64,000 bases of DNA from Cyanodermella asteris (Eukaryota > Ascomycota > Lecanoromycetes > Ostropales > Stictidaceae), in contig UYJD01000014.1 in assembly GCA_900618795.1 (NCBI GenBank), positions 502,245-566,244 on the forward strand. The letters are read 5' to 3'. This document shows positions 19,345 through 35,257 of this stretch, piece by piece. The number at the start of each line of letters is the position of its first letter. Position 1 is the first letter of the stretch. The notes under the pieces are model-generated. The model searched no databases, had not been told where the DNA came from, and saw only the letters and a list, made by a program, of their open reading frames with translations. The position numbers were made by a program, and so were the translations under genes.

Positions 19345-21207
19345 TTAGTCGTCGAACTTGATTTTCTCTGCCTTCTTGCCCGTGTCTTCCTTGTAAAAGG
19401 CCCCGTACGTGTCGTGCTGCTTTTTCTTGATGGTCGTGCCGAACTTCAGCAGCTCCTCCGGGACCGCCTGGTTTGCCGCCTTCAGCACTGCGATCAGCGA
19501 CCCCGAGTAGGCCTTGTCATGTTCGGTGAACATGGTGATGGCCAGCCCTTCGGCCCCAGCGCGCCCTGTGCGACCGATGCGGTGCACGTAGTCCTCGATG
19601 GTCAATGGAAAGGTCACGTTAAGCACCAATTTGACGTTGGGTATGTCCAAGCCGCGCGCCGCCACGTCCGTAGCCACAAGTAGTGGTGTCTCTCCAGACT
19701 TGAATCCTTCCAAAGCTTTGGTCCGCCGTTCCTGACTCAGATCGCCGTGGATGCCTGCAACCTTCATACCTCGGTGGTACAGAAAGTTCTCCACCCGACT
19801 AGCCTCTTTCTTGTATAGACAAAAGACAAGTATTCGGTCTTGTGCGTTCTTGCCCGACTGATACTGCTTGATCAGCTGCAACAGCCGTTGCTCCTTCGCC
19901 CGCGTGTCTACCACCTCGACGAGCTGCTTGATGCGGTTGTTTGCCCGCAACTCTCCGTCGGGATTGTCGGCGCCAATATTGATTCGTACCGGCTTATGCA
20001 TGAATGTCGCGGCAAGCTCGCGCACCGAAGGTGGCCAAGTGGCTGTGAACATGAGGGTCTGCCTGTTGCGACCTTTGCTGGCCATTCCGGTCGACGACGG
20101 GCTTGGCAGGGTCGACGAGATGATCTTTCTGATTTCTTGCTCAAAACCTTTGTCCAGCATGCGATCGGCTTCGTCAAGCACTACGTAGCTGACATTGCTT
20201 AGGTCAGCCGACCCTTCCTCGATCAGATCATTGAGTCGTCCGGGCGTAGCCACCACGATCTGCGCCGTCTTGAGGTCCTTCCGCTGTCCATCTTTGGGAA
20301 CGCCTCCATATACACATACGGCACCGAGACCTGCGGGCTTGCTTATTAGGATGATTTGTTCGTAGATTTGCACGGCCAGTTCGCGCGTCGGTGACACAAT
20401 CACTGCTCTAGCTGGCGAACCCTTTGTCTTGCCGCTGCCCTGTGCAGCCATGATATGTCGCACACAGGGTACACCGAAGGCCAGCGTTTTGCCTGAACCG
20501 GTCTCCGCAACACCGACGACATCCCGCCCTGAAAGCAGAAATGGCCATGCGGCCGACTGAATTGGCGTAGGGTTTTTGAAGGATGCGAAAATCTTGGGCT
20601 CCGGTGTCGCAGTGGTGGGAAGGTGGCTGAATGCAAGGATGGGCCGTAGTTTTGAATCTGTGCCTGCATCATTGATGGTAATATGGTTGTCGGAGAGAAA
20701 TTTGTCCACCTCAGATTGTGCTAGGGAGCTGAGGGTCGAGGACTGTTCGTATGCCAATGAGCTGTTTGAAGCTGTTCCATTTTGTCGTGGTATCTGCGCG
20801 CTTGCGCTGGGCTCTTCTACCTCCTGATCATCGACATCCTCCTGCTCGGCCTTTTTCAGGGCCTTGAGTCGCTTCTTCTCTGCTTTGCGAGCTTCTTTCG
20901 CTGCCCGCTTCGCCGCCTTTTCGTCCAGCTCTGCAGCAGGGTCGGCAGCAGGGCCGTCTTCGGAGGCGTCTGGCGCAGTAGCACCCTCTGTGACCTTCTC
21001 TCTTTCCTTGCGCTCCTTCTTTTCCTTCTTGAGTCGCTTCTTTTCTCGTCGTTCATCCTTGCTGAGCTTGGGTTCGGCCTCGGCGACTGTTGCGGCGTCG
21101 CTGGGCTGTTCTTTCAACTTTCTCTTCTTTTCCTTGCGGGGGAGATTCTCTACATTGATGGTGTTTGAGCTGGCGGCAGCTGCCTCGTCGGCTTTTCTTT
21201 TCGACAT
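19345..21207 (-). CDS. DBP3: ATP-dependent DEAD-box RNA helicase Dbp3 (ribosome biogenesis)
   Basis: 620 residues from the ATG at 21207. The first 130 residues are Lys/Glu-rich and highly charged ([15 protein letters not shown]), typical of nucleolar helicases. The helicase core shows motif I AETGSGKT (234-241), Ia PTRELAVQ (273-280), Ib TPGRL (321-325), II DEAD (345-348), III in the Dbp3-type form TATW (388-391), then [20 protein letters not shown] (511-523) and motif [10 protein letters not shown] (542-549). The C-terminus ([21 protein letters not shown]) is the Dbp3 hallmark. The family assists rRNA processing at site A3 and 60S assembly in the nucleolus. No introns. Confidence 0.95.
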
Positions 21208-21310
21208 TCTGAAGCGGTACGGTGCAATGTGCAATGTGTGAGCGCAATACGGTGCGGCAAGTTTTCGCGGCGCAAGACTCGGGTGCCGCAACTTTTTCTG
21301 CTGTTATCTC

Positions 21311-23850: not shown

Positions 23851-24818
23851 TCAAGGCAACTGGAGGAACTCTCCAGCACTCCGCCTGAAGCCGTCCAATC
23901 GTTGTATTTCCTTCCTCGTCCCCTCCAGATCCGTACTCAAACCTCGCCTTTCGTCAGCAAAGAACAGATTATAGGTGAATAAATCCATATACCCTCGACT
24001 GCATATGGCCATGGTCACCGTGTTCCACCTGTGCGTTTTTGGCTCAAAGTCAGGTGCGAACGACTCCTCTCCACAGTCCTTGGAGGCCTCCTCAGACAAT
24101 TGAGTCATGAGGTGATACCATCGAATGAAATCATCCTTTATCGCAGCCTTATCAGGGTCAAAATTGATCCCGGGTACGAAGGTAAGTCGGGCAGGCGCCA
24201 ACATGTCATTGCGACGTCTCCAGTGGTGGCAAAAGAGATGGCGAATCGGATGCCACTGGACCGAGTTGATCAAGGGCAACAAATCGTCAAACTTCTCCGT
24301 CTCTTCTCCGTAATCAAATACCGCGTTGGAAAGAAGCTTCCACGTTTCCTTGCAGAAGTCATTTTCCGTCAGCTGAATCTTGTCGGCGAAAATGTGTAAT
24401 GCCGTCGGGGTTTCGACATACCGAACCTCCGACCAACCCTCTTTTTCATTTCTGACGCACGCTTCAGATTTGAAGCCTCTAATTAGCCATTCCAGGATCA
24501 AATCGAAAGAATCGGGATCTTCGTCTTCCAGCTCAATGGACTCGGGCGCCTTGCATTTGCGCTGCTGGTTGCGGGTGAAAGCAGCGTTGAAATACNNNNN
24601 NNNNNNNNNNNNNNNNNNNNTCCGTGACAGATGACTCTCACATGAGCGACATATTGTTCCACGCGCTTGGGATTCGGTCCATTGCCGACGATGAAGGTAA
24701 CGATCCCTTTCTTCGCTTTCCGTCGGGCTTTGCATGGCGCCAAATGCTCTTCCCGAGACAGGCATGACTTGCTTAGGTCGGTAACACAATAACCGTGACG
24801 ATCAGGATCTAAGGCCAT
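23851..24818 (-). CDS. BTB/POZ-domain protein, copy 1 (interrupted by an assembly gap)
   Basis: Begins at the ATG at 24818 (MALDPDRHGYCVTDLSK). The N-terminal part reads to KKGIVTFIVGNGPNPKR and VEQYVAHVRVICHG, then meets 25 N (24596-24620). After the gap the BTB fold resumes (YFNAAFTRNQQRKCK, IELEDEDPDSFDLILEWL) but in another frame, because 25 is not a multiple of 3. The downstream region runs to the stop at 23851 with segments FADKIQLTEN, TWKLLSNAVFDYG, HPIRHLFCHHW and DFIRWYHLM that recur in the other local copies. BTB domains mediate dimerisation or Cul3 adaptor binding; no second domain is visible. The break is probably artificial. Confidence 0.75.
24596..24620. other. Assembly gap (25 N)
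   Basis: A run of 25 undetermined bases in the middle of the BTB domain of copy 1. The flanking motifs would normally be only a few residues apart, so the N count is probably a placeholder and not a measured length. Confidence 0.99.
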
Positions 24819-25549: not shown

Positions 25550-27085
25550 TTACCTTGGGTTTGCCAGACAGATAGGACTGCTCGGCAAATGCTCGGGAAT
25601 CTCGTTGACATGCACGGCTTCCGTCTTCTCGTTGTCGTCCTCAGGATACTCGTCAAGATGTACTCGTCGCCTAAATATCCATTCGTCCGATGACCCGCTG
25701 CCTGAAGATGGAGAAATGTCCCTGCCCTTACCTTCACCACGGCCATTGCCACGTCGCAGAAGAATATTGGTGAGGCTCTGCTTGAGATTGAAAGCCTGGG
25801 GGCTGTCATCAAAGTCCAATGAGCTTGGTTGCTGCCGTAGTGCTGTCACCTCATGAGCCCAGTCCGGTTCTGGGAACACAGAGCTCGGTGGAACTGATTC
25901 AATTTCTGCTGGCGACAGAACACTAGTTGTGGAATACTAGTCCTCAGAGGCCTGTCGTCGGTCTGCGAGGGTCGGTCTTGACACAGCACCGCTTGTAATA
26001 GACGGACTGTTACTGGAATTGGACGCGAAAGAGCTCCACCCCGGATCCGTATGGTGCCTACTTGTTGAGGCAGGATATCGACGCGGCGAATCATGTTGAC
26101 TTTCTGGTGCTGAATGCTGGTGAGAGAGCATCGGACGGTCAAACAGGGGTGCAGAGTAGCTCGGCTGGGGTGAAAGCATCGGTGGCGTTGCCCATTTCAC
26201 GGGCGACACAGATCCTGGACTTGGATCGCCGGCCCGTACGCTGGGTAAACTTGTCTTCCTTTCAGCCTTTCGCCACCAATTTGGGTGATCCACAGACCCA
26301 GGGGTCATCAAGCTAGGTCTGAGAGAAGTGTTGCGCTGGGCAATTGCGGCTGACCAATCCATTACATGAAAATCCCTCTCCGCAAATTTGGTGACTGGTG
26401 TTTTTGCAAGCCTCTGCGCCTTCGGCGACCATTTCATTGAATCAACGGTGCTCATGCGTTTCAAGGCGCCGGGCGATGTTGGACCCTGCTGAATGGGGAC
26501 TGGTGGTGTCCTTAATCTTGATTCCTTCTCGGGATGATATGTGAGCGATGACATGTGCATTGGACGTCCGCCGGCGAGCAGTCGATCCAGATGGGAGGCA
26601 GCCTATTGCTGGTCGCTCTCGGACTCGAAGTAAGCAATGGCGTATCCGAGTGGCTCACGTGTTTGTGGATGCGACATGACCTCAATGGAATGGAAAGATG
26701 GTAGGAGCTGGTGAAGCGTCTCAAACATGGCGGTTAAGCGAGCGGTAGTCATGGTCTCGTCCAAGTTACCAACGACAAGACGATGCAAGTCTGGCGGGGT
26801 AGAAGGATGTGGTCGTATGAGATCCACAGGTGGGAAGTAGCTGTTGGACGCCTCCGCTTGTTCGCTGAGTGAGTGTGGTCGTGAGCCTGACGTGCTATAG
26901 GTTCTGACGAGGGGCGAGGGTCTGTGCGGAACAGAAGGTCGACTGTAGGCGAGGTGTGACTGTCGACGATAATTTCCCTCGTCCGAGACCAGTCCATCGA
27001 GACCAGACAGAACCGATAGGGAATTCCAATGGCGTCGCCATTGCGAAGCAGAGTCCTCATCAAGGAGCGGGGCCCTTCTGGGCAT
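25550..27085 (-). pseudogene. RRM-domain protein gene interrupted by two in-frame TAG codons
   Basis: One frame runs from the ATG at 27085 (MPRRAPLLDEDSASQW) to the TAA at 25550, about 511 codons, broken only by TAG at 26603-26605 and TAG at 25937-25939. The first segment ends inside an RRM: RNP2-like RLVVGNL, RNP1-like GYAIAYF, then FESESDQQ-stop-AASHLDRLLAGG, where helix 2 and the last strand clearly continue past the stop. The second segment is Ser/Pro-rich (KWSPKAQRL, SPVKWATPP) and the third ends RRVHLDEYPEDDNEKTEA. I found no frame-consistent intron that removes either TAG. It may be a pseudogene, a gene with two sequencing errors, or one whose UAG codons are edited or read through. The RNA target is unknown. 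Confidence 0.65.
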
Positions 27086-32650: not shown

Positions 32651-33517
32651 TCACATCCGCAAGAACTTCCTCGAAAAAGCCCGACGCTTTTCTCGGACAG
32701 GCTCGAGTTTGGCAAAATACCCCAGGATGTCAGGGAACGGCTCATCCTCGAAGAGAAGTGGAATCAACAGTTTGTCATTGTTGTGGGCTCGAGACTCCGA
32801 CTTGCTCACGTGGGTACCGGTTGACCACGCCACTTTTTTTCCCCCAGCCGATTCCTCTCATGAGGTTCTCCCAACGAACCAGATCGCTAGCGAATTGGGT
32901 TTCCTCGAGTTCCGAGAAAATGACCTCCGGCCACATTTGAGGAAGATACATGGGAACTGCGTGAACGAACAGGAAGCGAATCGGGTGTGAAATCGTCAGT
33001 CGGTACCCTTCGATCACGGGATCCCATTTGGAGGGGACCGCTGCGAGCTGTTCGTGCAAAAGATTCGAGATGTGTTTCGTCGTTTCCTTGGCAAGGCTCA
33101 TGATGCACCACTTGTCTGCCATTAGAGAGAAGCCGATCCACTTGTTCAACGGGACGTCCTTCAGGTCCGTGTCGAGGTCGTTGGTGGACAGTCCGCGGTA
33201 TAGCCAGCGAATGAAGATGCGGAATACCTCTGAATCTTCTTCGCTCAAATCGATGCTCTTGGAAGAGCCTTCCTTGAAGTTGCCATCGAAGGCCTTTGCA
33301 AAGTACTCAATCTGACTGGCGTATCGCCGCGGGAGTTGGAAAATCGTCTTCTTCTGTTTCGCAGGTCCAACTTTGATCTCGACGACGTCAAATCCCCCTC
33401 CTTCGAAGCTTTCCACCAGGGCCCCTACCGGCAAACCCGGAGTCGCCATATCGACAGCGTAACTGAGAACCATCAGTCAATGCTGCGTGCCATGGTTGCA
33501 TCAACTTACCGGACCAT
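32651..33517 (-). pseudogene. BTB-domain gene, copy 3, with one frameshift near the 3' end
   Basis: Exon 1 is only 8 coding bases (33510-33517, ATGGTCCG), followed by a 47-nt intron 33463-33509 (GTAAGT..TTCTCAG, TGACTGA branch) and exon 2 from 33462. As written, the frame stops at 32775, 231 residues. It holds the BTB core (YFAKAFDGNFKEGSSKSIDL, FRIFIRWLYRGL), DKWCIMSLAKETTKHISNL, HPIRFLFVHAVPMYLP and FASDLVRWENLMRGIGW. Past a T7 run on the plus strand (32834-32840) another frame continues the family's C-terminus (LLIPLLFEDEPFPDILGYF to the stop at 32651). One indel in that homopolymer separates them. It is either a sequencing error or a recent mutation; the rest is intact. Confidence 0.7.
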
Positions 33518-33799: not shown

Positions 33800-34625
33800 T
33801 CACATCTGCAAGAACCCCCTCCAATAAACCCTCTCATTTCCCCTCTGCTTCATCCAATTCTGTGGCAAACAACTCGTATAACTCGGCCACGTCTCCGCGT
33901 CATGCAACAATGGCATCAACAACAAATCGCTCCCATGCGCACTCCCCTCGGGCGCCTTGTAATGATTCTGCGCAACATACGTCTGGGGCTTATCCGTCGT
34001 GCGGACCAACATGTGCATCCAGCGTGCCAGATCCGTGTCGAAGCCCGTGTCCGGCAGGTCGCCGATCATGCGCGCCGGGCACCACAACCGGTTCATCTGA
34101 TGAGACGCGTGAACGAAGAGCATGCGGAGCGCATAAGATTCGGTCAGACGGTAGCAGGTCTTGAGCTGTTGGCAGTGGGCCGTGAGGGCTTCGTTGAGGG
34201 CGTCGCCCGTGAGGCCGGCGCAGAGGGAGGACATGGTCACCAGGTTCCAGATCTGTTTCGATATCCCCGGCATCGGGGACTTGACTATCCATTTATCGAG
34301 CATGAGGTAGAACTTTGCCCACGTTGTGAAGCTGTAGCTGCTGCCGAGGTGGGTTCCTGGAAACCCTCGGTACAGCCATTCTGTGAAGAGCCGGAACGCA
34401 TCCGGGTCTTCGTCGTCGAGCGTTATCGTTTTGGACTCTGCTTCGGCGAAGTGGCCGTTGAAGGCGCGGTCGAAATAGCTGATGGCGCATATGTGCTTGA
34501 GAGGAAAGGTGAACTTCCTCTTCTCCGGCCCGACCAGGATGGTGGTCATTTCGCTGTCGGGGTAGCCGGTGCGGAAGAGTTTTTCGGAGAGCCATGGTTT
34601 GCCGAACGGGACGGTTTGCGTGTAA
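33800..34625 (-). CDS. BTB-domain protein, copy 4: main exon intact, first exon not located
   Basis: The long exon starts after a CAG acceptor at 34626-34628 (phase 2, the same site as in copies 3 and 6) and runs to the stop at 33800, 275 residues. The first internal Met is at 34549 (MTTILVGPEKRKFTFPLK). Family landmarks are all present without interruption: YFDRAFNGHFAEAESKTITL, DPDAFRLFTEWLYRGF, LDKWIVKSPMPGISKQIWNL, LRMLFVHASHQ, DTDLARWMHML, and the end HGSDLLLMPLL, ETWPSYTS, ERVYWRGFLQM. No 8-nt ATG exon of the kind seen in copies 3 and 6 was found in the 600 bp upstream, so the start may be the internal Met or a distant exon. It is the only copy of the group with an undamaged body. Confidence 0.75.
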
Positions 34626-35257
34626 CTGCATGGGCATGTCAGCGAACTGTGTCCCCGTGATGACGGTTCAATGGTTCAACGGTTATGACAGTGGTGGAGC
34701 GCCCAAGGTAGGTAACCAAAGGTCGTGGCGTATGTACGGACAAGAACACATCGGTGTACACTTCATCAACGACTTACATACCTCTATCTTGTCGTACCTC
34801 GTAAGAGCGCCCCAACCCCTGTAGGCACCTATAGTAGTAGCTATCAAGGTAGATATGAAGGAAGTCTGCTAAATAGAAGTTCTGGGACTTGTGCAACCAC
34901 CTTTGCTTGTCCGCCTTGGGTGGAAAGCTTGTGGTACTCTGAACACTGGGCGGGACGATCATGATGTAACGTACAGAACCATTGTTAGTTGTGCGATGGC
35001 AGAGCGGTCCACGTTTTAGGGGCAGGATTCGGCAATTTCTGTATTATTGTACCGCGACAAGTTCCTTCAGAGACGTAGTCTAGAATGGCGCTCGATCTGT
35101 GATCCCACGGGCGTGCATATCGTTCAATCACGGCCATGGTCCGCCATCATCTCAGCCTTGTTGATGAGCCACCCAAGCACGTGACCTTTCCGTTCTTCGT
35201 GATCCGCTTGCGGGTCTCTTCATCCCTGTCGCATGCTCTACCCTCTCTCGGGGCGGA
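34626..35257. other. Intergenic, about 630 bp
   Basis: Upstream of BTB copy 4. No gene is seen; the expected ATG-bearing micro-exon of copy 4 was sought here and not found. Confidence 0.4.

Follow-up and report, generated by a model that had tools for sequence, protein, structure and literature searches.

A fungal RRM-protein gene interrupted only by two in-frame TAG codons: a candidate for premature-stop mRNA editing

Introduction

The closest described systems are fungal genes whose mRNAs carry a stop codon that is edited away. PUK1 of Fusarium graminearum has tandem UAG-UAG codons in kinase subdomain nine that become UGG-UGG in perithecia, its Neurospora crassa orthologue NCU03242 (STK-21) has UAG-UGG at the same site and likewise yields UGG-UGG in perithecia, and in Magnaporthe oryzae and Claviceps paspali the G is already genomic (PMC4817773). 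NCU03242/STK-21 is an AGC/NDR kinase with CBK1 as its best yeast match, separate from the COT-1, DBF-2 and RIM15 types, and deletion of An-Stk21 in Aspergillus nidulans is viable (PMC3591445).

How far such editing extends beyond the Sordariomycetes is less settled. It occurs in the pezizomycete Pyronema confluens, and individual edited sites are poorly conserved across species (PMC5381528). The review PMC11156358 reports that genome-wide editing was not found in fruiting bodies of A. nidulans and Botrytis cinerea, disputes claims of editing in basidiomycetes, and states as open which classes of Pezizomycotina edit their mRNA; apart from the disputed basidiomycete claims, we recognised no report of editing beyond the Sordariomycetes and Pezizomycetes in the open-licence literature. 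The change from KN to MV is held to be the key step in the evolution of Ame1 in Sordariomycetes, the class in which the interaction of Tad3 with Ame1 is considered to have originated, and Pyronema, which has an extra Ame1-type copy, edits by a route of probably independent origin (PMC11087585).

Here we analyse a gene for an RNA-recognition motif (RRM) protein in a 64-kb stretch of a fungal genome (the window), together with a kinase gene elsewhere in the same assembly, and weigh editing against other explanations of their in-frame TAG codons.

Results

A long frame with two TAG codons as its only interruptions

The frame of the RRM gene (27085-25550, minus strand) comprises 512 codons counting its terminal TAA. 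Its stops are TAG at codon 161 (TAG 1), TAG at codon 383 (TAG 2) and that TAA, with no TAA, TGA or frameshift inside the 511 codons, in agreement with the original prediction of a frame of about 511 codons broken by two TAGs alone and free of indels and of other stop types. Three stops, the terminal one included, compare with a mean of 15.2 and a minimum of 4 in dinucleotide-preserving shuffles (n=2000), so the frame is open beyond chance expectation. By hexamer score, frame 0 ranks top of the six frames before TAG 1 (0.082) and after TAG 2 (0.17), and synonymous codon preference departs from the null in the same two segments (z 3.3 and 2.0, respectively); on both measures the outer parts of the frame look coding, and the C-terminal piece has the clearest signal of the two pieces that lie behind a TAG. 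The middle segment is serine/proline-rich and open for 221 codons; there frame 0 ties with another frame (0.045 vs 0.054), codon preference is near the null (z 1.05), and coding constraint is weak and equivocal.

Table 1. Positions of the features discussed (window coordinates unless a contig is named).
Feature	Position	Strand	Basis
Whole frame, ATG to TAA, 511 codons, two internal TAG	25550..27085	-	stop scan of frame
RRM_1 match, residues 103-176, uninterrupted over codon 161	26558..26779	-	profile match, 24.7 bits
TAG 1, codon 161, predicted second helix of the RRM model	26603..26605	-	frame stop scan and structure model
Predicted small hairpin CAGC-AATAG-GCTG, A of TAG 1 in loop	26599..26611	-	RNA folding
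TAG 2, codon 383, within serine-rich stretch	25937..25939	-	frame stop scan
Two ACTAGT palindromes, 8 bases apart, able to pair; TAG 2 in the first	25922..25941	-	sequence and folding
C-terminal piece behind TAG 2	25550..25936	-	hexamers, codon preference
DBP3-type DEAD-box helicase frame, neighbour of the RRM gene, used for placement	19345..21303	-	domain match, protein search
NDR-type kinase frame, one TAG in DWWS motif	contig C21:381147-378337	-	kinase domain survey

Protein and DNA searches found no second copy of the gene in the 28.5-Mb genome, where only two other RRM frames resemble it, and those weakly, and its TA/AT and (CA+TG)/(AC+GT) indices are normal. Lacking both a duplicate and a CpA-to-TpA skew, the gene gives no sign of RIP, and we reject that process as the cause of its stops; the original choice between a C-to-T nonsense change and editing of UAG to UGG is the right one, with RIP removed from the former. 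Reassignment of TAG to sense is contradicted by the terminators of the 264 kb around the window, where TAG ends 19 of the 68 long frames. It had also been proposed to align orthologues and see which of Gln and Trp they have at the TAG sites; protein searches returned no orthologue to align, either with the full length at E 0.01 or with the RRM region at E 10. Rfam families gave no match on the 64-kb window.

Elsewhere in the window, two BTB/POZ matches on the minus strand stand barely above the cut-off of 20.5 bits (32775-33476 and 33800-34675; 20.7 and 20.6 bits), and their frames are perhaps a local family. A run of 25 N at 24596-24620 lies inside an open frame that resembles these nearby BTB-type frames (BTB score 14.4, below the cut-off).

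TAG 1 lies inside the RRM domain

The RRM_1 match, scored with codon 161 entered as X against a cut-off of 20.7 bits, spans TAG 1, which had been predicted to fall inside the domain. A single-sequence structure model with Gln at codon 161 has the order beta-alpha-beta-beta-alpha-beta (mean pLDDT 72) and puts codon 161 in the second helix, so that a protein ending there would lack the remainder of this helix and the final strand. A fold search with this model returned RRMs intermixed with other ferredoxin-like folds; model and search served only to locate TAG 1. The residues matching TAG 1 in two Sex-lethal RRMs are R and E, and for this reason a lost Gln (CAG to TAG) would fit the position better than an ancestral Trp.

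An intron over TAG 1 is disfavoured because the RRM match depends on the sequence to either side of it, and no frame-keeping candidate there passed the GT...AG filter. A donor-like GTGAGC at 26658, noticed by eye, would open a 56-base intron that ends at TAG 1; it shifts the frame and deletes the RRM core, and we rejected it. At TAG 2 there are at least six weak frame-keeping GT...AG candidates, with 2 of 4 donor bases matched and no branch-point match, and the reading of TAG 2 as non-intronic is less certain than that of TAG 1.

A kinase with UAG at the apparent PUK1 editing codon

The kinase frame on contig C21 is a single exon of 609 codons, a TAG (C21:379319) and a further 326 codons in the same frame, the stop standing in the context D-TAG-W-S. 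The lysine motif YAMK, HRDVKPDN, DFG and APE are all present. The TAG aligns without gaps with the first W of CDWWS in yeast Cbk1, the closest solved structure, and by this alignment Trp does fit at the position. Identity with Cbk1 is 50 of 102 and 29 of 67 residues in the two aligned parts, which we judged too low for a COT-1 orthologue. A Pfam scan found no domain besides the kinase, and an NCBIfam scan returned bacterial kinase families only and was uninformative. From the low Cbk1 identity and the lack of another Pfam domain, the frame is, by elimination, the probable STK-21/PUK1 orthologue. Hexamers trained on contig C20 make frame 0 clearly the best on either side of the TAG, which speaks against C21 being a foreign contig.

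About 330 single-base changes could create a stop in this frame (327 when this codon is left out of the count), and one of them yields the TAG observed. Chance does not readily explain its presence at the apparent published editing codon, in the sole kinase type known for such editing.

Folding and neighbouring bases of the three TAG codons

Of the 8 flank lengths used for folding, 7 place the A of TAG 1 in a hairpin loop; the exception, with the A in a stem, is +-30 nt, the flank of the published hairpin criterion. At +-30 nt, 17 of the 43 UA sites of the RRM gene lie in hairpin loops, so the hairpin at TAG 1 is not distinctive. For TAG 2, 7 of the 8 lengths put the A in a stem, and the A of the kinase TAG is paired. 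Set against the neighbour preferences in PMC9600606, 3 of 6 bases around TAG 1 are preferred and 3 depleted, TAG 2 has 4 preferred, 1 neutral and 1 depleted, and the kinase TAG has 5 of 6 preferred, in scores to which the TAG itself contributes the U at -1 and the G at +1. These features do not separate the readings weighed below.

In-frame stops across the genome

A domain survey gave at least 480 matches in nine families; a tenth, SPO22, had no match. Its counts are a lower bound, with 124 of 177 kinase, 9 of 304 MFS and 150 of 360 WD40 candidates scored. Stops fell in 29 matches, and the 37 stops among the matches listed divide into 8 TAG, 14 TAA and 15 TGA, which is no excess of TAG inside domains among these matches; most of the 37 are probably intronic. 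None of the matches listed for WD40 (149 matches), RhoGAP, MFS, DUF726 or DNA methylase contained a stop. Seven of the eight TAGs were examined (the eighth is C19:930966): five stand at or behind intron borders or at match edges, and TAG 1 of the RRM gene and the C21 kinase TAG are the only ones within a continuous domain. Among the TAA and TGA codons, 4 of 29 were examined, three of them at intron borders or match edges and the fourth being C18:342909; TAA or TGA may interrupt domains in this genome as well. One WD40 match, at about 64344-64430 of C21, belongs to a frame open for 21669 aa, which may be a long run of N.

A scan of the 264 kb around the window for pairs of frames (at least 80 codons) joined in the same frame across a stop gave 131 pairs, 69 of them at TGA, 35 at TAG and 27 at TAA. 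Eight passed a coding-like filter (5 TAG, TAG 1 among them, 2 TAA and 1 TGA); TAG 2 failed it. The filtered TAG at 621608 fits an intron end, the three remaining ones look by eye like true ends or shadows of genes on the other strand, and we did not count this result as an excess of TAG.

Placement of the fungus and its DUF726 proteins

The DBP3-type helicase was used to place the fungus. Among the best 120 of 3140 relatives none exceeds 70% identity. The named ones among these 120, which we take to be members of Lecanoromycetes, Leotiomycetes, Dothideomycetes and smaller classes along with one basidiomycete, include no Sordariomycete. A 37-row tree puts the window sequence on a long branch outside the Leotiomycetes, and constraining it to group with Leotiomycetes was rejected (AU p 0.001; p 0.029 for Dothideomycetes). 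This is one gene on a long branch, in a tree without a Sordariomycete row, and it suggests that the fungus likely lies outside the Sordariomycetes. The modest identities of these best 120 of 3140 relatives also indicate that this lineage is sparsely sampled in the protein collection.

The genome has three DUF726 frames (C16:44839-45969, C9:667213-668229 and a third on C15). Those on C16 and C9 are of Ame1 type, are 42% identical to each other and have the S-D-H spacing of FgAme1 (58/40; 58/41 in the C15 frame). The Sordariomycete MV pair (500-501) is absent from all three proteins, which have AK, AQ and SL at the equivalent positions as set by distance from the catalytic Ser. With the Sordariomycete form of Ame1 not seen, editing would need another route; the absence of MV does not exclude it, since Pyronema edits with a probably independent origin (PMC11087585).

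Discussion

We propose that the RRM gene may be a premature-stop gene of the PUK1 kind. Translation of unedited mRNA would end at codon 161, inside the RRM, and give a 160-residue fragment with an incomplete domain. During the sexual stage, an adenosine deaminase of the Tad2-Tad3 type would convert the A of each UAG to inosine, and the edited codons, read as UGG (Trp), would yield an RNA-binding protein of 511 residues. In favour are the two TAGs as sole lesions, RRM similarity that spans TAG 1, and the UAG-UGG in the DWWS motif of the C21 kinase, whose probable orthology with PUK1/STK-21 lends indirect support to editing. The two genes are also the only ones among the seven examined TAG cases with the stop inside a continuous domain, and two DUF726 proteins keep the FgAme1 spacing. 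Against it stand the R and E of the Sex-lethal RRMs at TAG 1, the paired A of TAG 2 and of the kinase TAG, the lack of a TAG excess, the lack of MV, and the failure to find editing in fruiting bodies of A. nidulans and B. cinerea (PMC11156358). We infer that the fungus edits mRNA, that the RRM gene is a target and that the edited protein would work. At the level of the genome we consider it rather probable that premature-stop editing runs in a lineage outside the Sordariomycetes and Pezizomycetes, at the codon of the Neurospora STK-21 kinase, without an MV-type Ame1 and perhaps by means of one or other of the two divergent DUF726 proteins of Ame1 type, with the RRM gene a likely further target. 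The kinase site may be ancestral or an independent gain; given the poor conservation of edited sites (PMC5381528), it need not be inherited. For the RRM gene itself, UAG-to-UGG correction is our best reading, held with evenly balanced confidence and less firmly than the genome-level claim, mainly on account of the residues at TAG 1.

The main rival, tentatively entertained and less probable than editing, is a recent pseudogene or null allele, in which two nonsense substitutions, most simply CAG to TAG, would have struck a dispensable single-copy gene, the C21 kinase being a second loss, with neither gene needed any longer in this lineage. A Gln or other polar residue would be in keeping with TAG 1, codon preference in the middle segment is slight, and A. 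nidulans can grow without this type of kinase (PMC3591445). Nor is a double TAG rare: the original prediction took the uniform stop type to speak against random decay, and both stops are indeed TAG, but the argument is weak, as the codon counts of the gene (CAG 13, CAA 6, CGA 13, TGG 10) imply that two transition-type nonsense changes would both give TAG in about one case in five. What a pseudogene accounts for less well is 511 codons without frameshift, TAA or TGA, outer segments that still look coding, and a kinase lesion that would have hit the published edited codon by chance.

Removal or bypass of the TAGs by other means, whether splicing, ribosomal read-through, a recoded TAG or separate short products, we regard as improbable: the weak candidates at TAG 2 would allow splicing there, but TAG 1 has no frame-keeping candidate and lies in a domain match that needs both flanks, and TAG serves as a terminator in the surrounding sequence. 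Read-through contexts are CTA or CARYYA, and the bases behind the two stops, GCT and TAT, match neither. Least probable of all is that both codons reflect mistakes in sequencing or assembly, or polymorphism in the strain that was sequenced. The TAGs do rest on a single assembly, but two TAG-making errors in one gene and a third at the published edited codon of the kinase would be a coincidence; error-prone assemblies, moreover, usually carry frameshifts, and this frame has none.

In a probable non-Sordariomycete, the kinase with UAG at its PUK1-type codon and the RRM gene interrupted by TAG only provide two mRNAs that bear on which classes of Pezizomycotina edit. Genes of this sort would be truncated by automatic annotation or given spurious introns, which has been reported for both PUK1 and CHE1.

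Among known systems, a nonsense-mutated pseudogene resembles the RRM gene in its nonsense codons, its single copy and the failure to find a homologue; gene decay, however, usually brings frameshifts and mixed stop types, and the RRM gene has neither. With PUK1 and STK-21 it shares an in-frame TAG as sole kind of interruption, inside a domain (PMC4817773), and the genome holds a probable orthologue of that very kinase with UAG-UGG. It differs in encoding an RRM protein rather than a kinase, in a position at TAG 1 where related RRMs would not lead one to expect Trp, in a fungus probably outside the Sordariomycetes, and in that editing is known there from RNA and proposed here from DNA alone. In Pyronema confluens, too, editing was demonstrated by RNA-seq (PMC5381528), whereas here it is proposed from the genome. 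The likeness to Pyronema is that editing here would again be editing outside the Sordariomycetes (PMC5381528), in a genome that, like that of Pyronema, carries extra Ame1-type DUF726 copies (PMC11087585).
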